NCBI GenBank assembly: GCA_947462815.1
Contig: CANHQR010000018.1
Span: forward strand, 1 to 54,564
Direction of reading: 5' to 3'
Length of the DNA: 54,564 nucleotides
Source: Pseudobdellovibrionaceae bacterium
GTDB taxonomy: Bacteria; Bdellovibrionota; Bdellovibrionia; Bdellovibrionales; JAMPXM01
Shown here: positions 31,315 to 41,788 of the stretch, one piece after another
Numbering within the stretch: the first letter of the stretch is position 1
Layout: each line of letters begins with the position of its first letter
Program-made: the position numbers and the translations under genes
Notes under the pieces: generated by a model
Databases searched by the model: none
The model's input: the letters and a program-made list of their open reading frames with translations, nothing else
What the model was told of the DNA's origin: nothing

Positions 31315-32163
31315 ATGGGTCTTCGGATCAATACAAACGTGGCCTCACTAAACGCCCAACGAAACTTGTTGGGAACGAAGTGGGGATTGGACAAGAGCCT
31401 TGAACGCTTGTCCTCTGGCTACCGAATCAATCGGGCCGGAGACGACGCAGCGGGATTGGCCATCAGTGAAAACCTGCGGGCACAGATCCGGGGTCTCAAA
31501 CAGGCGTCTCGCAACGCTCAGGACGGTGTCTCACTCGTCCAGGTTGCGGAAGGCGGACTGAACGAGATTTCAAGCATCATGATTCGCCTGCGCGAACTTG
31601 CAGTACAAGCTGCTTCGGACACGATCGGTCCGGTCGAGCGTCAGTTCCTCAACGTGGAATATGACCAGCTCGTCTCCGAAATCGATCGAATCGCCGATGG
31701 CACGGAGTTCAACGGAACTCAACTGCTCAGCGGAACGGGGTCAGTGCTCGATTTCCAAGTTGGAACTCGAAACGATCCAAATATCGACCGCCTCACGTTC
31801 GATGCCTCGAAGGCTGATGCGAATAGCGCAGCGCTCGGCATCAACTTGACCAGCGTCGCAGATAAAGCGTCCGCCCAGAACAGCTTGGCCGCAATCGATG
31901 CCGCAATTGTAAGTGTGTCCGCGATGCGCGCCGACTTCGGTGCGATCCAGAACCGCTTGCAGTCGACAATTGGTAACCTAGCTGTCTCGGTCGAGAACTT
32001 GTCAGCAGCGAACTCGCGAATCCGCGATGTGGATGTCGCCGAGGAAACCGCTGAGCTCACGCGCAACAACATCTTGTTGCAAGCGGGCACTTCGGTCCTC
32101 GCCCAGGCGAACCAAACATCCAACACAGCGCTTTCGCTCTTGAACCGCACGTTCCAAGGCTGA
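31315..32163 (+). CDS. fliC: Flagellin
   Basis: A 282-residue flagellin, the subunit of the flagellar filament exported through the flagellar type III apparatus. The N-terminal D0/D1 region has INTNVASLNAQRNL, LERLSSGYRINRAGDDAAGL, and QVAEGGLNEISSIMIRLREL. The C-terminal D1/D0 region has ADFGAIQNRLQSTIGNLAVS, ENLSAANSRIRDVDVAEETA and ANQTSNTALSLL. The variable middle is very short, so D2/D3 are absent, as in the compact flagellins of many predatory and deltaproteobacterial relatives. A strong aaggaggagg ribosome site precedes the ATG. A sigma28-like promoter lies upstream and a hairpin terminator downstream. It is a paralogue of the next flagellin. Confidence 0.97.
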   Translation: MGLRINTNVASLNAQRNLLGTKWGLDKSLERLSSGYRINRAGDDAAGLAISENLRAQIRGLKQASRNAQDGVSLVQVAEGGLNEISSIMIRLRELAVQAASDTIGPVERQFLNVEYDQLVSEIDRIADGTEFNGTQLLSGTGSVLDFQVGTRNDPNIDRLTFDASKADANSAALGINLTSVADKASAQNSLAAIDAAIVSVSAMRADFGAIQNRLQSTIGNLAVSVENLSAANSRIRDVDVAEETAELTRNNILLQAGTSVLAQANQTSNTALSLLNRTFQG

Positions 32164-32289
32164 CGAACTCTGACTCCCGTGACTTCGCTTGAGTTCTAAC
32201 GTCGAGAGGCGTCAGCTCGAGCGAGAATACACCTGGACGAAGGCGAACGCTTTCTTCCGGCGTGACCGACGAATCTGTTTCCTGCTTTT

Positions 32290-32325
32290 GGGGAGGGAGG
32301 ATCTAACTCCTTCCTCCCCATTTAT
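32290..32325 (+). terminator. Hairpin terminator after flagellin 1
   Basis: ggggagggagga (32290-32301) pairs with tccttcctcccc (32308-32319) with one G-T wobble, six-base loop, followed by atttatt. It is about 130 bases past the flagellin stop. The rest of 32164-32610 holds only leader and promoter sequence for the next flagellin. Confidence 0.8.
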
Positions 32326-32466
32326 TCAATTCGAACGCCGATATCATTTTCGATATCCAATGTTCGAAAAGCGCTCGCGTCACATCGTCACAAATCGACG
32401 ATGATCAGCGCTCTCGCGCTCACCTTATCAAAATCATCGATTTGAAATCTAGACCACAACTGGACT

Positions 32467-32493
32467 CAAAGACCCATCAAAAAATTCCGATCC
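32467..32493 (+). promoter_or_regulatory. Sigma28-like promoter candidate of flagellin 2
   Basis: caaagacc, 11 bases, then tccgatcc gives AAAG at -35 and CCGAT at -10. A second candidate with an exact gccgatat lies at 32337-32344 but has a poor -35. A tgtcca-tgg-tggaca hairpin (32505-32519) lies in the leader just after the first candidate. Confidence 0.4.
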
Positions 32494-32610
32494 AGCTATG
32501 GGGATGTCCATGGTGGACACATGAACCCCGGTAAACAAACGACGCATGAAGTGTCGTTCTGCCAAGGTTGGCAATGATCAAGGAGGATCTGATGAAACAA
32601 GGAGGATAGG

Positions 32611-33444
32611 ATGGGTTTACGTATTGCGACCAATGTGGCGTCGTTGAACGCTCAGAAAAGCTTGGTCGGAACACAGCGCTCGGCGAACCAGAGCTTGGCT
32701 CGATTGAGCTCAGGCTATCGAATCAACCAAGCGGCAGATGATGCTGCGGGACTCGCGATCAGCGAGAACTTAAGAGGTCAGGTTCGAGGTCTTCGCCAGG
32801 CCAACCGTAACGCGAACGACGGTATTTCGCTCGTACAAGTTGCCGAAGGTGGCTTGAACGAGGTCTCAAATATGTTGATCCGTCTTCGCGAACTCGCGGT
32901 GCAGTCGTCTTCCGACACGATTGGCGATACAGAACGTAAGTTCATTGATGTGGAATATCAGCAGCTCAAGTCCGAAATTCAGCGGATCACTGAGGTGACT
33001 CGCTTCAACGGACGCGACCTTCTGAACGGGACTGGCGGACTGATCGACATTCAAGTTGGAACGTACAACGACCCCTTCAAGGATCGGATCTCGTTCAATG
33101 CTTCGGCGGCAAACGCCAGCCTCGATGCTCTCGGCATATCGGCCGAACAGGTGAGCACGAAGGAAGGTGCGCAGGTCAGCATGGATGTGATTGACCGAGC
33201 CTTGGTGTCGGTGAACGCGATTCGCGCCAACTTCGGTGCGATGCAGAACCGGCTGCAGTCGACGATTCAAAACTTGGCTGTGGCTGACGAAAACTTGTCG
33301 GCTGCGAACTCGCGAATCCGTGACACAGATGTGGCCGCGGAGAGCGCAGAGCTCGTGCGCAACAACATCCTCATGCAAGCCGGCGTGAGCGTGTTGGGAC
33401 AGGCGAATAACATGCAACAGGTCGCGTTGAAGCTGCTAGGCTGA
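32611..33444 (+). CDS. fliC: Flagellin, second copy
   Basis: A 277-residue flagellin close to the previous one in both ends: IATNVASLNAQKSL, LARLSSGYRINQAADDAAGL, VSVNAIRANFGAMQNRLQST and DENLSAANSRIRDTDVAAES. The middle differs (GRDLLNGTGGLIDIQVGTYN, DALGISAEQ), which indicates an older duplication with separate use. An aaggagg ribosome site precedes the ATG. The last six codons plus stop form the 5' part of a hairpin that is repeated three more times after the gene. Filament or sheath-layer position relative to flagellin 1 cannot be told from sequence. Confidence 0.97.
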   Translation: MGLRIATNVASLNAQKSLVGTQRSANQSLARLSSGYRINQAADDAAGLAISENLRGQVRGLRQANRNANDGISLVQVAEGGLNEVSNMLIRLRELAVQSSSDTIGDTERKFIDVEYQQLKSEIQRITEVTRFNGRDLLNGTGGLIDIQVGTYNDPFKDRISFNASAANASLDALGISAEQVSTKEGAQVSMDVIDRALVSVNAIRANFGAMQNRLQSTIQNLAVADENLSAANSRIRDTDVAAESAELVRNNILMQAGVSVLGQANNMQQVALKLLG

Positions 33445-33581
33445 AACGCGACAGCCTGAGACGCTCGCGTTGAAGCTGTTGGGCTGAAACGCGACAGGAT
33501 GAGCGGCTCGCGTTGAAGCTGTTGGGCTGAAACGCGACAGGATGAGCGGCTCGCGTTGAAGCTGTTGGGCTGAAACGCGAC
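33421..33581 (+). repeat. Four-copy 43-bp array built from the flagellin tail
   Basis: Four 32-base copies start at 33421, 33464, 33507 and 33550, separated by 11-base spacers, giving an exact 43-bp period. Each copy is an inverted repeat (tcgcgtt ... aacgcga) and each contains the sequence for A-L-K-L-L-G-stop. Copy 1 is the real end of the flagellin gene; copies 2-4 are identical to one another and differ from copy 1 at three bases. Confidence 0.95.
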
Positions 33582-33604
33582 GAACAGAAGCCACAGACAT
33601 TGAT

Positions 33605-33630
33605 GAGAGGGCCCCATCTCGGGCCCTCTC
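33605..33630 (+). terminator. Strong hairpin after the flagellin repeat array
   Basis: gagagggccc and gggccctctc form a perfect 10-bp stem with a six-base loop. The following tgtcccc is not T-rich, so termination may be imperfect. Confidence 0.65.
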
Positions 33631-33738
33631 TGTCCCCGCCTCTGAAGGTAACTGCCTCTCAAGTCACGGATCGACTTGTAGGCCGAAAATTCCTAGGCCC
33701 TGCCGACAGGAGGGCGATCACGGAAAGGACTCCGTAAG

Positions 33739-33828
33739 ATGTCGAACACAATGAGTGAATGGTCAATGAGCCTCGCATGGGTTTTTACAAGTGTTGCAGT
33801 CTGGATCATCGGACTGGGGCTCAGTTGA
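33739..33828 (+). CDS. Candidate 29-residue single-TM small protein
   Basis: A short frame starting ATG TCG AAC and ending at TGA 33826-33828. The protein begins with polar residues (MSNTMSEWSM) and continues with one hydrophobic helix of about 17 residues (LAWVFTSVAVWIIGLGL), then ends in Ser. The layout is that of small membrane proteins that associate with larger complexes. The ribosome site is weak. Chance is possible for so short a frame. Nothing else was recognised in the gap 33631-33941. Confidence 0.35.
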   Translation: MSNTMSEWSMSLAWVFTSVAVWIIGLGLS

Positions 33829-33941
33829 TTGCACCCTCGGCTCTCCCCACAAACTATGGAGACGGTAGCTCTCGAGCCGGCGACTCGAAGCCAAATCCGG
33901 AGATTGTACATCGAGCTCTCCGACTGACTCAAAGAGCTGAA

Positions 33942-34700
33942 TCATCGTACTTCGCGTTCTAAGATTCTCAAAGCACGCTGAGTTTCGGCCCCCGCCGCCC
34001 TTCGCGCCAAGGACACCCAAAAGGCGTGAAGTGGCAACAGGCCGCGATGGCTCGTGAACTCGAGATCGAGAGCGTTGAGTCGAGCAAAAGCCCAAGCTTC
34101 GATGAGGCTCCACTTGCGAAGTGTACGCCCCAAATCGACGGGAGAGATCTCACAGCGCCCTAGAATCGATCGACAATACCCTTGATGGCGAATCTCGTCG
34201 TTCGCGATCGATTCCAGAATTTGTGCACCGATATCGTTTTGATTTTCGCGAAAGGCCATCGCAAAGAGCTTCAGGTTGTGAGCCGTGCGAACCTCAATCG
34301 CCATGAGGGCGGAATAAAACTCCGCAACATCCTGATCCGAGTCGATTCTCGACTTACGAATCGGCGCGAGCCGCTCTCCCAAGAGAGGTACGAAGCTCAT
34401 CGACTCTGGTAATTGGGCTTCAAGAGGATTTTTCAAGAGGCGAGCGATTTCCCCTTCCAGCATTCCCACGTGACGTGTTTCATCTTCACGGTGAATTCTC
34501 GCCAGTTTGGCTCGTCCCTCATCCTTCCAAGCTCTTTCCATATACTCGGCCACGACATCAAACAGCGGAATCTCGCCCTCACTCTCGGCATTCGCCAGAT
34601 GCTGGAGAAGATGGGCTTGTCCTCGAGGTGTACTGGCCACGCGTCTTAAGAAGAGGAGCGTGATCTGATCTCGAATCCAAGACTCAACTTTTTGCCACAT
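33942..34700 (-). CDS. Ferritin-like diiron protein
   Basis: About 252 residues. The start is set at MWQKVESWIRDQ, with aggag seven bases upstream; an in-frame ATG 11 codons earlier would overlap the previous gene. The protein is largely helical and shows two E-x-x-H motifs (REDETRHVGMLE and ANDEIRHQGYCR), with additional Glu residues on intervening helices (EYMERAWKDE and MAIEVRTAHN). This E..ExxH..E..ExxH arrangement is that of ferritin-like diiron proteins, which include oxidases, hydroxylases and rubrerythrin relatives. Its start lies two bases from the end of the CapA-like gene, so the two are probably co-translated. Substrate unknown. Confidence 0.75.
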   Translation of the reverse strand: MWQKVESWIRDQITLLFLRRVASTPRGQAHLLQHLANAESEGEIPLFDVVAEYMERAWKDEGRAKLARIHREDETRHVGMLEGEIARLLKNPLEAQLPESMSFVPLLGERLAPIRKSRIDSDQDVAEFYSALMAIEVRTAHNLKLFAMAFRENQNDIGAQILESIANDEIRHQGYCRSILGRCEISPVDLGRTLRKWSLIEAWAFARLNALDLEFTSHRGLLPLHAFWVSLARRAAGAETQRALRILEREVR

Positions 34701-37127: not shown

Positions 37128-38807
37128 TCACTTCCGAATGTAGTTTCGAAACGCAGCCAGACCCAAAAAGATCGCCAAGCTGTAGAAAATCGCCGACCAT
37201 ATAGGAATCCCCAAAACTAAGCCTGACGCTGCCGCTGGTAAGAACATCAAGGCGCTACCTGACAAAATGAGACTGCCGATGACAAGGCCGAGGAAGATGA
37301 GATTCGATGACGCCTCCAGAGACGTCTTCAGCTCTTCCAGTTCGACCAAACTCAGTCGAAAAGCGAAATCCGGGTGATTGATCTTACGCACAAATTGCCG
37401 CAACTCGCGCGGTAAGGACTTCAAAAGTGCCAGGCTATCGCGGCCGACGCGAAGAGCATCATCGCGGAGACGCAAAGGATCCGTCTTTGACCTCACCAAT
37501 TCATCCGCGAACTCAAGGGCGTGGGGGAGCAAATCAAACTCTCGATTGATCACACGACCCATACCCTCGACCGTGACAATCGACTTAAAGAACAACAAAA
37601 GTTCGCTGGGTAAGATCAAGCCGTGCTTGGCCGAGATCGCAGTAGTTCGCATCAGCAAGCGACCTAGGTCAACGTTACGAAGATTGAGTCCGAAATGCGG
37701 GGCCAAGACGTCCTGCAGCTCGCGAGCAAACTCGTCGATGTCGACCCTGTCTGTGTAGGGCGCAATCTCAATGTACTCGTAGGCGAGGCGCTCATAGTCT
37801 TCCGTATAAAGAGCGAGGAACAAGTTGGCGATGGTATCCCGAACACGACGACTCAGACGTCCAACGATACCGAAATCAATCAAGCCGATACGCTGATCAG
37901 GCATAATGAAAAGGTTGCCGGCGTGCAAATCACCGTGGAAAAAACCGTGGACAAAAACTTGGCGGAAGTAGCACTTCACGCCTATGCGCATGACGGCGTC
38001 GCGATCCACGCCGCTTTGTCGCAGAGACTCTGGGTTCGAGAGAGGAACGCCCTGAAGCGCCTCCATGACAAGGACTTTCGGTCCCGAGTATTCCGTGTAA
38101 ACAATCGGAATTTTAACTGTCGTATCGTCGCGAAAGTTCTGTTGGAAGCGCCGAATATTATTGGCCTCAACCGAAAAATTCGTCTCGAGCTCCAAGGATT
38201 TGGCAAACTCATCAACGATGCCCAAGGGATTAAAAGCGGCGGCTTCGGGCAAGAACCGATGCAAACGTTCGGCGATGAACTCCAACACGCCTAAATCGTT
38301 ACGAACAACCTCGGCAATACCCGGTCGCTGAACTTTTACAACCACCGATTGACCGCTGCGAAGCTTCGCTCGATAGACTTGAGCAATGCTCGCGGCACCG
38401 ATGGGTGTCTCATCGATGTACTCAAAGACTTCATGCAGATCACGACCGAAATGCGCCGTCAAAGTTCCGCGCATTTTTTCAAATGGCAATGCGCTGACTT
38501 GATCATGAAGTTTCTTGAATTCCTCAACCCAATCTTCGGGAACCAAATCGGGACGTGTCGCCAAGAGCTGACCGAGTTTTACGAAGGTGGGTCCCAACTC
38601 TTCAAAGGCCATGCGCATGCGCTCAGCCGTCGTGTATTGATCCGGATCAATTCCGCTGAGGCGCTCGACGAGAAATCGGCCGAGCCGAAGTCGCTCAGCG
38701 ATATTTTGAAATCCATATCGAGCGAAGACACTGACGATGACGCGGAGACGAGCCGCATTGCGAAGAGCCGAACTCACATGCCGACGTCGTCGCCGCTTCA
38801 CGTTCAT
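37128..38807 (-). CDS. ubiB: UbiB/ABC1/AarF atypical kinase
   Basis: A 559-residue member of the ABC1 atypical kinase family, linked to ubiquinone or other isoprenoid lipid metabolism. Key motifs are ELGPTFVKLGQLLATRPDLV (the KxGQ region), PIGAASIAQVYRAKL (Ala-rich loop), VVVKVQRPG (ATP Lys), HGFFHGDLHAGNLF (catalytic loop) and LIDFGIVGRLS (DFG). Two C-terminal membrane helices (NLIFLGLVIGSLILSGSALM and a final one) match the family. The length is typical. Its start overlaps the RNase R stop by four bases, which suggests co-expression. Confidence 0.93.
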   Translation of the reverse strand: MNVKRRRRRHVSSALRNAARLRVIVSVFARYGFQNIAERLRLGRFLVERLSGIDPDQYTTAERMRMAFEELGPTFVKLGQLLATRPDLVPEDWVEEFKKLHDQVSALPFEKMRGTLTAHFGRDLHEVFEYIDETPIGAASIAQVYRAKLRSGQSVVVKVQRPGIAEVVRNDLGVLEFIAERLHRFLPEAAAFNPLGIVDEFAKSLELETNFSVEANNIRRFQQNFRDDTTVKIPIVYTEYSGPKVLVMEALQGVPLSNPESLRQSGVDRDAVMRIGVKCYFRQVFVHGFFHGDLHAGNLFIMPDQRIGLIDFGIVGRLSRRVRDTIANLFLALYTEDYERLAYEYIEIAPYTDRVDIDEFARELQDVLAPHFGLNLRNVDLGRLLMRTTAISAKHGLILPSELLLFFKSIVTVEGMGRVINREFDLLPHALEFADELVRSKTDPLRLRDDALRVGRDSLALLKSLPRELRQFVRKINHPDFAFRLSLVELEELKTSLEASSNLIFLGLVIGSLILSGSALMFLPAAASGLVLGIPIWSAIFYSLAIFLGLAAFRNYIRK

Positions 38808-41788
38808 CGCTTCGCACTACCTTTGTTACCCTTTGAAGACGACGAGGCCTTCTTCGCGACGGCTCGGCGACCTCCGAGACCGCCCTTTTGAGCCTTACGT
38901 GCGGACTGACTCGCACCTTTGGCGCCAGATCGCCGCGCCGATTCGGTTTCTTTTCGAGCGGGTTTGCCCTGCTTGTTGCCCTTGCGTTGCTCCGAACGAG
39001 ACTTTGAAGCACTACCACGTGCGGACATGTCGCGATCTCCCTTCCACTGGCTCGACCTCGAGCGTGCCGAACTCGTCGAAGGACCTGGTCCTCGCTGAGC
39101 GGCCTTACGATTTTCGCGTGCAATTTCAACTTCTGTTGGATCGCCGAGCATTTCTCTTTCGAGAGCCTCGACGTCATCCTCGTTCGCCAATTCGGCAACG
39201 ATCGCTAAACCGAAATCGATTTTACCTGTGGATACGTCAGCCGCCAAAACTTCAACCCGCAAATGATCGCCCAACTTAAAAACTCGGCCCGTACGCCGAC
39301 CAAATAGGCGCATCGACGGCTCATCAAACACCCAGCGATCATTACCAAGCGATTCGAGCCGGAGCAGGCCATCGACCTCGAAATCTCGAAGTGTGACGAA
39401 TAAGCCGAACTTCGTGACCGAGGTCACCGCTCCCTCAAGGGTTTCACCGATGTAGCGGCGAATGAATCGAGCCTTCTTGATCGACAACACTTGCCGTTCA
39501 GCCTTGACGGCTCGCTGCTCACAGGCGGAGAGATGCTGAGCGGCGGCGGCGATCTCCTCCCGTTCCATTCCTTGATTGCGATAACGATCCACCAGCACAG
39601 CTTTAATCAAGCGGTGAGCGATCAGATCGGGATAGCGACGAATGGGCGAAGTGAAGTGGGAGTAGTGGGAGAAGCCGAGACCGAAGTGCCCGATATTTTC
39701 TTCGGAATACTGCGCCTGCGACATCGCACGAAGAGCCAACATGTTAAGAACTTGCCCGCCTGGCTTTTGAGCGGCGACTTGCAAAGCTTTCGTCATACGC
39801 TTTTGCAAATCGTGTCCATGCAGCCCCTTCACTTTTCCTGAAGGTCCCATGAGATTCCACATCATACGCTCGAGAGTCTTGATCTTCTCAAGATCCGGCT
39901 CGTCGTGAACGCGGTAGATTCCATGCAATCGCTGGTCTTCAAAAAACCGAGCCGTGCACACATTGGTGATCAGCATCATCTCTTCGATCAAACGGTGCGC
40001 GAAGAGACGCGTGCTGCGCACAATGTCGGTTGTCTCGCCCGAATCATCGACCACAACTTGAGTCTCCGGGAGCTCCAGATCCAAGGAGCCTTCGCGAAAG
40101 CGCTTAGCCATCAGGATCTTTGCAAGATCGGCACAGCGCTTGATGTTCGCGACGACTTTTGGAAGAGCCTTCATACGGTCATTGATCTCATCGTCGATGA
40201 CTTCTTGAGCCTCTCCGTAAGTCACTCGAGCTTGTGATCGCATCACACCTTCAAAGAAGCGATATTGACGAATCACACCTTGCCAATCGAGTTGAATCTC
40301 ACACGCAAAACAAAGTCGATCGACCTCGGGCTTCAAAGAGCAGAGCTCATTCGAAAGCTCCTCGGGAAGCATCGGCACAACATGATTCGGAAAATAGACG
40401 CTGGTCCCACGAAGGTAGGCGTCTTCATCAATGGCTGAGCCCGGTTTCACATAGTGAGAAACGTCGGCGATCGCGACGACAAGTCGGAACCCATTCGTCG
40501 TCGACTCGGCATAAACAGCGTCGTCGAAGTCGCGTGCAGTTGCGCCGTCAATCGTGATCAGCGGCAAATTCCGCAGATCTTCTCGACCCGCGCAGTCTTC
40601 GGGGCGAACTTCGGTCCCAAGAGACACAGCTTCGCGCTGAGCCTGTAAAGAAAACTCGTCGGGAATGTGGCGCTCATGGACCACGCGAATGATATCGTTG
40701 AGAGGATCTTCCACGTCGCCCAAAATCCGAACGACACGGCCCGTGAGCGGTCGATCCTGTGAGGCATATTCGAGAATTTCGACAGCGACCCAGTCACCTT
40801 CTTGAGCCCCCATCGAGTCTTCTGTGAGAACGCGCAAATCCATTCCCCAGCCGCGGCCGTCATCTTGGATCACGCCGTAACGACGATCGACTGGTAAATA
40901 GCGGCCGACAACGCGTGCATGCGCCCGCGACAAAATCCGTTTGACCTCGCCGAAGAGCCGCTCCCCGCGGTCACCACCTTCTTTAGGGCGCGAACGAAAA
41001 ACCTCAACCTCGACTCGGTCATTGCTCATCACGCCGGACATGTATTGCCGAGAAATGTACACATCAGGTACCGAGGCATCATCAGGTAGCAAAAAGCCAA
41101 ATCCATCAGGATGTCGCTTGACGGTTCCCGTCACAAACAACCGCTGACCTTCGCGGCGAGCTTCCTTCTTAACGACTCGAACACCTGTCGCTGCCGCGCC
41201 ACCCACTGGCTTGGGCAAAGCGGGGCCTCCCGCGAGCGGCTCCGTCGTGGTGGGCAGTCCTGTGCCTAGACTTCGCGCTCTTGGCCAGCCCGGATCGACG
41301 GGAGTTCGCGGGCCGCTGCCCACCACATCGCGTGCAACCTCTGCGGGCGTGATGAGGGAGGACAATTCCGCCGGGGGCGTGAACACAGGCTTCAGGCCCT
41401 GGGGCTGAGGGCGCGCGCTTGTTCGCGGTCCCTCGGAACGAGGAGAGGGCGTACTCTTTTGCGACGGCGGCGGCTGAGATTGCGACGGCGTCGACATCGG
41501 AAAGCTCATCAGCGGCTTGTATTCGATCGAACGCTTGGGCAAACCCGTCGCTAACGCGCCGCCCCCAGGCGGTCGAGGCGAATCGCTTCGCGACGATGCA
41601 AACTCGGGCCGAGCCCATCCCGATCGCGAGGCCGCTCCGCCCAGAACATCTCGCAACGAGCGCCCGTTATTGATCTCGCGCTGTGAATCTCGCGATGAAT
41701 CGCGGTCTTCCCGCCGAGAATTCGACTTGGGCCCGCCGGACGGACCTTGTTGAAAAGAATTTTTGCGAGTTCCACGTCCGCGTCCCAT
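38804..41788 (-). CDS. rnr: Ribonuclease R with long disordered extensions
   Basis: A 994-residue 3'-5' exoribonuclease. The N-terminal 220 or so residues are Ser/Pro/Arg/Gly-rich and look disordered. The conserved body begins near RLFVTGTVKRHPDGFGFLLP (cold-shock domain). The RNB catalytic domain has LITIDGATARDFDDAVYAE (metal-binding Asp residues), IADVSHYVKPGSAIDEDAY, and GFSHYSHFTSPIRRYPDLIAH. An S1 domain follows (GETLEGAVTSVTKFGLFVTL). The last 130 residues are basic and low in complexity (SARGSASKSRSEQRKGNKQ). E. coli RNase R is about 813 residues and has only a short basic tail. It is divergent from tRNA-Leu. Confidence 0.94.
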   Translation of the reverse strand: MGRGRGTRKNSFQQGPSGGPKSNSRREDRDSSRDSQREINNGRSLRDVLGGAASRSGWARPEFASSRSDSPRPPGGGALATGLPKRSIEYKPLMSFPMSTPSQSQPPPSQKSTPSPRSEGPRTSARPQPQGLKPVFTPPAELSSLITPAEVARDVVGSGPRTPVDPGWPRARSLGTGLPTTTEPLAGGPALPKPVGGAAATGVRVVKKEARREGQRLFVTGTVKRHPDGFGFLLPDDASVPDVYISRQYMSGVMSNDRVEVEVFRSRPKEGGDRGERLFGEVKRILSRAHARVVGRYLPVDRRYGVIQDDGRGWGMDLRVLTEDSMGAQEGDWVAVEILEYASQDRPLTGRVVRILGDVEDPLNDIIRVVHERHIPDEFSLQAQREAVSLGTEVRPEDCAGREDLRNLPLITIDGATARDFDDAVYAESTTNGFRLVVAIADVSHYVKPGSAIDEDAYLRGTSVYFPNHVVPMLPEELSNELCSLKPEVDRLCFACEIQLDWQGVIRQYRFFEGVMRSQARVTYGEAQEVIDDEINDRMKALPKVVANIKRCADLAKILMAKRFREGSLDLELPETQVVVDDSGETTDIVRSTRLFAHRLIEEMMLITNVCTARFFEDQRLHGIYRVHDEPDLEKIKTLERMMWNLMGPSGKVKGLHGHDLQKRMTKALQVAAQKPGGQVLNMLALRAMSQAQYSEENIGHFGLGFSHYSHFTSPIRRYPDLIAHRLIKAVLVDRYRNQGMEREEIAAAAQHLSACEQRAVKAERQVLSIKKARFIRRYIGETLEGAVTSVTKFGLFVTLRDFEVDGLLRLESLGNDRWVFDEPSMRLFGRRTGRVFKLGDHLRVEVLAADVSTGKIDFGLAIVAELANEDDVEALEREMLGDPTEVEIARENRKAAQRGPGPSTSSARSRSSQWKGDRDMSARGSASKSRSEQRKGNKQGKPARKETESARRSGAKGASQSARKAQKGGLGGRRAVAKKASSSSKGNKGSAKR

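Follow-up and report, generated by a model that had tools for sequence, protein, structure and literature searches.

A single, probably recent array of tandem hairpins overlaps the coding end of a flagellin gene in a Pseudobdellovibrionaceae bacterium

A flagellin gene of a Pseudobdellovibrionaceae bacterium ends inside a tandem array of hairpins, the first of which contains the last codons of the gene. The array, a hairpin VNTR that overlaps the coding end, is genuine, occurs at one place and is probably of recent origin. We interpret it, with moderate confidence, as a lineage-specific intercistronic VNTR that arose by slipped-strand replication and most likely has no dedicated function. It lies in the leader between the flagellin gene and the gene for a predicted microprotein.

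The source genome is a 3.43-Mb draft of 107 contigs that is 96% complete (GCA_947462815.1), and the window is its contig C18 (CANHQR010000018.1, 54,564 nucleotides). Open reading frames and Pfam domains place tandem flagellin genes at 31315-32163 and 32611-33444, and the whole genome has six clear flagellin matches. Bdellovibrio bacteriovorus is likewise described as having six flagellins, with two pairs among these (PMC2791853). The named matches that rank highest for the 32611-33444 flagellin come from metagenome bins with the titles Bdellovibrionota, Bdellovibrionales or Bdellovibrionaceae, and B. bacteriovorus appears lower in the list. In a record titled as a Streptomyces griseus MAG (L096, CALQIT020000039.1), the flagellin is 78% identical to this protein and the title therefore looks wrong. 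Ahead of the flagellin start, at 32579-32613, the Shine-Dalgarno-like CAAGGAGGAT is present twice. The array and its immediate surroundings comprise the following features.

32611-33444, + strand: flagellin of 277 amino acids, its last codons inside array unit 1 (open reading frame; Flagellin_N 8.4e-41, Flagellin_C 7.7e-24)
33422-33464, + strand: unit 1, consisting of flagellin tail, stop codon, hairpin and 12-nt spacer (direct unit comparison, TRF, folding)
33465-33507, + strand: unit 2, unlike unit 1 at 6 of 43 positions (direct unit comparison)
33508-33550, + strand: unit 3, identical to unit 2 (direct unit comparison)
33551-33581, + strand: unit 4, partial (31 bp), the same as the first 31 bp of unit 2 (direct unit comparison)
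33605-33630, + strand: 10-bp stem-loop 3' of the array, with no U tract after it (fold of -22.5 kcal/mol; not called terminator-like)

TRF reports the array at 33422-33581 with a period of 43, 3.7 copies, 94% matches, 0% indels and a score of 278, and direct comparison of the units agrees, bearing out the exact 43-bp repeat at the flagellin tail that was claimed in a sequence-only reading of this DNA. The four units counted there are present as four hairpins, but the fourth period is incomplete and copy 4 has no spacer. Codons for A-L-K-L-L-G-stop were correctly placed in all four units, and unit 1 alone is read in the frame of the flagellin, which confirms it as the true gene end. Of the six positions at which units 1 and 2 differ, two lie in the terminal loop and four in the 12-nt spacer; the CTA/TTG change between the gene copy and the other units would be synonymous. 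Such head-to-tail, near-identical units at a constant period are those of a bacterial intergenic VNTR or minisatellite, here with a copy number known from one genome. There was no second genome of the genus among the flagellin matches or the 368 phylum genomes compared.

Within 454,564 bases (the window plus 400 kb of the 3.43 Mb), the array has the top tandem-repeat score; the next reaches only 137 against 278, and the array is therefore no chance product and seems distinct from a background of many similar minisatellites. Elsewhere in the same genome, clusters of short-period minisatellites (11-39 bp) lie at L140:7207-7570 and L128:7860-7945. Given a draft of 107 contigs, the array could be an assembly artefact and the cell could hold fewer copies. 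We consider this very improbable, as assemblers would tend to collapse copies rather than invent them, units 2-4 span just 117 bp, and units 1 and 4 should provide distinguishable ends.

Recent expansion, which had also been proposed, is supported by units 2-4, which are identical where they overlap. Together with the divergence of unit 1, this suggests an older duplication followed by recent amplification, or ongoing homogenisation. We hypothesize that slipped-strand replication, promoted by the hairpin, would have doubled the flagellin tail once, that this copy would have drifted slightly in its loop and spacer, and that the drifted copy would then have been amplified recently. Because all copies specify identical final residues followed by a stop, a change in copy number would spare flagellin and would only lengthen the untranslated stretch between flagellin and the small downstream gene. 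The related proposal that recombination between copies never alters the protein holds for in-register events, given that all units encode A-L-K-L-L-G-stop.

Hairpin-bearing VNTRs have been described in Wolbachia, in which VNTR-105 and VNTR-141 are tandem intergenic periods with 23-bp hairpins and 9-bp stems; their copy number varies between strains and the hairpins are assumed to trigger slippage (PMC3287509). The flagellin array likewise consists of tandem intergenic hairpin-bearing periods, but its period is 43 bp, its first unit is partly coding and includes a stop codon, and it is known from one genome. In Mycobacterium tuberculosis, the rnc-fpg1 intergenic tandem repeats are described as missing in other mycobacteria, with a length that correlates with downstream gene expression (PMC2734929), MIRU-VNTRs are a further case, and promoter tandem repeats are also described (PMC12817950). 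The flagellin array similarly places, in an intercistronic gap, units that other species lack. Unlike these repeats, its unit is a hairpin with a stop codon, of a kind that the available portions of these sources do not describe for rnc-fpg1 or MIRU-VNTRs, and the array is known from sequence alone.

When up to three mismatches are allowed, the unit hairpin occurs at four places in the genome, all of them within the array, and the unit was found in one of 368 phylum genomes, the window's own. An exact search for the unit core in viral contigs and a blastn search of 33380-33700 against phages and plasmids gave no match. The sequence-only reading had advised looking for the same tail repeats after the other flagellins of the genome; across the six flagellins, none was found at up to three mismatches. 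Its suggestion that flagellin genes could recombine with one another at this array thus fails, because the unit has no second carrier in the genome. A single unrelated place, C4:26317-26343, has the same hairpin arms.

REP and BIME elements are palindromic RNA hairpins in enterobacterial 3' untranslated regions that can slow 3' exonucleases, and REPs are dispersed in many copies. The array units are also palindromic RNA hairpins that follow a gene. Unlike REP/BIME, they occur at a single place and overlap a coding end; the four genome matches, all in the array, include no dispersed palindrome copies.

The same distribution bears on a site-specific recombination site, in which a 32-bp near-palindrome with a central TGYTRG would be a tandem attachment site left at the 3' end of the gene by an integrating element. 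The arms of unit 1 would suit this role (13 bp, 11/13 complementary, flanking a centre of 6 bp, located where a gene ends and with the stop codon preserved), and within the 32 bp the only changes from unit 1 to units 2-4 affect the first base and the centre. However, no other copy was found in the genome, the 368 phylum genomes, viral contigs, phages or plasmids, and what comes next is a member of the microprotein family with no element between. We rejected a tyrosine-recombinase attachment site or mobile element, for which a second copy of the core is expected beside an element or on a mobile one, and regard this origin as highly unlikely.

Comparison with other flagellin loci also argues for a recent array. 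No repeat that includes the flagellin tail was found in any of 78 other loci that reach the stop codon, although two of them (L096 and L084) have just 49 and 118 bases past the stop, too little to tell; we therefore consider the array recent and not conserved. Several unrelated repeats follow the flagellin stop in the 78 loci, the longer ones in L103, L115, L116, L113, L061, L065 and L107. In another genome, L103 has a 28-bp tandem array of 5.3 copies at 163-310 bases past the flagellin stop. L115 and L061, two flagellins of one assembly, have related long palindromic elements downstream, as judged by eye, and the L115 copy is a 137-bp tandem repeat. Palindromes of the GGTACC/GGTGCC type, also seen by eye, lie near the flagellin ends of L021, L028, L019 and L030 and are possibly dispersed REP-like elements.

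The 79 loci from which the 78 were taken include several paralogues at 60-68% identity, which were kept. Later counts include nine further loci and treat identical tails as one, so that they cover 86 relatives and the window (87). We dropped L100, in which the contig ends before the stop, L034, L040 and L041 by hand, and L026 and L037, in which no start was found by pattern. L032 (wrong open reading frame) and the other flagellins of the window genome (L035, L036, L038 and L039) were dropped from the later counts.

The hairpin of a single unit has 11-12 pairs, and the comparison of units 1 and 2 used 22 paired positions. The outer stem has 7 or 8 pairs and is separated by a symmetrical GA/GA internal loop from a 4-pair inner stem, which is capped by a 4-nt loop; the stop codon UGA sits on the 3' side. 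Single units reach -19.8 kcal/mol (unit 1) and -16.3 kcal/mol (units 2-4), and in each case none of 200 dinucleotide shuffles was as stable; the array with its flanks (33400-33650) is more stable than all 200 shuffles (z -4.4). The four local hairpins sum to -68.7 kcal/mol, and the best fold of 33421-33582, which is nested, reaches -78.8 kcal/mol. Arm self-pairing within 33380-33600 is 0.98 for unit 1, 0.70 for unit 3, 0.68 for unit 4 and 0.04 for unit 2. A register switch, in which the 3' arm of one unit pairs with the 5' arm of the next, was rejected because it yields -23.1 kcal/mol against these two totals. Inverted 12-nt matches to 34365-34376 were judged to be likely chance. None of the six changes from unit 1 to unit 2 touches a paired position (22 in all), a hint that the stem is constrained (P = 0.009 if they are independent, weakening to ~0.12 because they form three clusters); unit 1 is also held by its coding.

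The seed hairpin is unusually strong. Folding at the stop codon in the 78 loci averages -4.7 kcal/mol and goes no lower than -13.2 kcal/mol, compared with -19.8 kcal/mol in the window; weaker hairpins occur at the equivalent place in L054 and L045. For the 86 relatives, 40 rounds of unblocked permutation of the 3' flanks gave z of -2.0 to -3.0, with 0, 0, 0 and 1 of 40 as low for four window sizes. GC-blocked permutation gave 40 of 1,000 as low, and 7 of the 86 loci lie in the lowest 5% of their own flanks (~4 expected), so a conserved stop-codon hairpin is weak at best. The inner AGCU/RGCU pairing results partly from the L-K-L-L-[GS] codons themselves. The strength of the seed hairpin relative to the 78 loci and the slight excess of stop-codon folding in the 86 relatives both count against a neutral origin. 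The sequence-only reading had stated that absence of such repeats from all relatives, together with no effect on transcript level, would refute it; as to the former, none of the relatives examined has the array, and they share the stop-codon hairpin weakly at most.

No U tract follows any array hairpin, and a scan of 32100-34100 gave no + strand terminator-like site at 32321-34100; the sole + strand terminator-like sites in the scan lie at 32289-32320, after the first flagellin. An intrinsic terminator array, for which GC-rich hairpins with U tracts are expected, was therefore rejected. A search of 32100-34000 against Rfam gave no matches at E <= 1.

Alternatively, the array may be a selected mRNA stabiliser, in which the hairpins shield the abundant flagellin message from 3' exonucleases once the downstream part is removed and more units give a longer half-life. 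Its place between flagellin and the downstream cistron is consistent with this, as are the four strong hairpins and the fifth at 33605-33630, all without a U tract; in many relatives, too, flagellin and the microprotein are separated by a stem-loop, mostly without a U tract. Nevertheless, the array is in no relative examined, and in the relatives one stem-loop or none suffices. RNase R, which is encoded nearby (38804-41788, RNB domain), is regarded as the exonuclease that degrades REP-type hairpins with no need of a helicase (PMC2777011), which counts against stabilisation and makes the block of RNase R that had been suggested the least likely variant. A block of PNPase or RNase II by the array hairpins would be possible. 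Overall, we think a selected stabiliser unlikely, although it is the alternative to which we give most weight.

If a VNTR without dedicated function has any effect, it would be mild. The hairpins, lying 5' of the 33605-33630 stem-loop, could slow 3'-to-5' decay of the flagellin message by enzymes of the PNPase/RNase II type. They could also partly insulate that message from the downstream leader, in which the following features were predicted.

33660-33678, + strand: CsrA-like hairpin with a 6-bp stem and an ACGGAUC loop (hairpin scan; predicted unpaired probability of GGA 1.0 at 33668)
33720-33735, + strand: second CsrA-like hairpin with a 5-bp stem and an AAGGAC hexaloop, holding the likely Shine-Dalgarno sequence of the microprotein (hairpin scan; predicted unpaired probability of GGA 1.0 at 33727)
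33739-33828, + strand: predicted microprotein of 29 amino acids with an EW motif and one hydrophobic stretch, from an unannotated family (detector, alignment and profile search; no Pfam match at E <= 1)

In many relatives, flagellin is followed by a protein of 23-32 amino acids with one hydrophobic stretch and, near the start, an E-W pair. With EW as a requirement, a detector called it at 27 of 87 flagellin loci, the window included, compared with a mean of 0.85 and a maximum of 3 in 20 rounds of dinucleotide shuffling, 1 on the reverse strand and 0-2 for six other residue pairs. The alignment (A1) contains 24 of the 27 calls, with L063, L079 and L101 omitted by eye; EW is invariant in it because EW was the selection criterion. 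A profile built from the 24 copies gave matches at E <= 0.05 in 18 of 39 genomes, at a single place in each. Sixteen matches are below 1e-4, all directly after flagellin, and many of these sequences are in the profile itself; weak matches in G011 and G009 are not directly after flagellin. The profile had no match in G013 and G026, in which the detector had called L101 and L079 (both omitted from the profile), and the copies in these two genomes are doubtful for this reason. The profile has no match in any of the five genus g19 genomes, and the flagellin of B. bacteriovorus kdesi (L059) is not followed by a detected microprotein. Against Pfam, three of four copies tested, including that of the window, gave nothing at E <= 1 and one gave an insignificant 0.14. 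Among the matches listed in a search of open-licence literature, no paper reported an EW microprotein or a CsrA leader in Bdellovibrio. The EW microprotein, as a predicted protein, represents an undescribed family.

CsrA acts on flagellin transcripts, with FliW as antagonist, in the described cases of Bacillus subtilis hag (PMC7652899) and Campylobacter jejuni flaA (PMC4894983). A described binding site is ANGGAN located in the loop of a hairpin, and the Escherichia coli glgC leader has a further site at its Shine-Dalgarno sequence (PMC7652899). The leader at 33660-33735 looks like a CsrA-type regulated leader, with a putative ANGGA hairpin loop and a putative Shine-Dalgarno site near flagellin. 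Unlike in the known CsrA-FliW systems, the likeness involves an extra downstream microprotein; it concerns this leader and not the array. ANGGA in a hairpin loop near the Shine-Dalgarno sequence makes it a candidate CsrA-binding RNA, as judged from sequence and fold. The genome encodes csrA (C102:1518-1673) and fliW (C102:2136-2588), near a distant flagellin-like match; this match, perhaps flgL, clusters with both genes at G000:C102:348-2588.

For the window leader taken alone, 19% of shuffles also yield an ANGGA hairpin, and the case rests on the relatives. An ANGGA hairpin loop is found in 12 of the 27 microprotein leaders, whereas dinucleotide shuffles predict 0.99; two of these leaders (L057 and L058) have their only such hairpin at the Shine-Dalgarno sequence. 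Among loop motifs of the same form, ANGGA ranks first (12 loci, next 4; with stems of at least 8 pairs, 8 and next 3). It is also the commonest motif of this form anywhere in the leaders (20 of 27, next 19) because Shine-Dalgarno sequences contain it, and part of the loop enrichment may therefore stem from them. Nine leader hairpins keep the loop motif while the stem sequence changes, with pairing itself being a selection criterion. Loci without a detected microprotein show an ANGGA hairpin in 9 of 60 cases (2.3 expected), and the hairpin may thus belong to the flagellin 3' region and not to the microprotein alone. In the 60 nt before the flagellin start, ANGGA is again the commonest loop motif (36 of 79 loci, next 20), a raw count made on the 78 loci and the window with duplicates kept, to which the Shine-Dalgarno sequence itself contributes. 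This is reminiscent of CsrA control of B. subtilis hag.

As a copy-number rheostat of the CsrA-like leader and microprotein, the array could work through read-through or folding into the leader, or through two spacer GGAs that serve as extra CsrA contacts. The array does lie inside the microprotein leader, upstream of two ANGGA hairpins, in a genome with csrA and fliW, and CAGGAUG occurs in the spacers of units 2 and 3. However, the spacer motif is CAGGA and not ANGGA, the GGA at 33540 is predicted to be paired, as is the first G of that at 33497, and relatives have the leader without any array. We consider such a rheostat rather improbable. An array acting as a CsrA sponge or CsrA-binding RNA was rejected; the leader hairpin scan gives only 33660 and 33720 as hairpins with ANGGA in the loop. 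In a related reading, which we likewise hold to be a long shot, flagellin and the EW microprotein, taken as a membrane protein, would form an operon in Bdellovibrionota, and its intercistronic leader would be a CsrA-type switch, formed by the ANGGA hairpin and the Shine-Dalgarno sequence. In the lineage of the window, a phase-variable array, seeded by the stop-codon hairpin of flagellin itself and never altering flagellin, would set how much message reaches, or survives into, the leader.

The array provides a natural case in which the stop-codon hairpin of a gene has turned into a tandem repeat that can vary in length and leave the protein unchanged. Its importance would grow if array length tunes the message, and its interest rises mainly because of its location in a leader that looks regulated. 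The leader and microprotein may be the more interesting feature, and they suggest, in a form open to testing, that the CsrA-FliW-flagellin circuit may extend to relatives of predatory bacteria.
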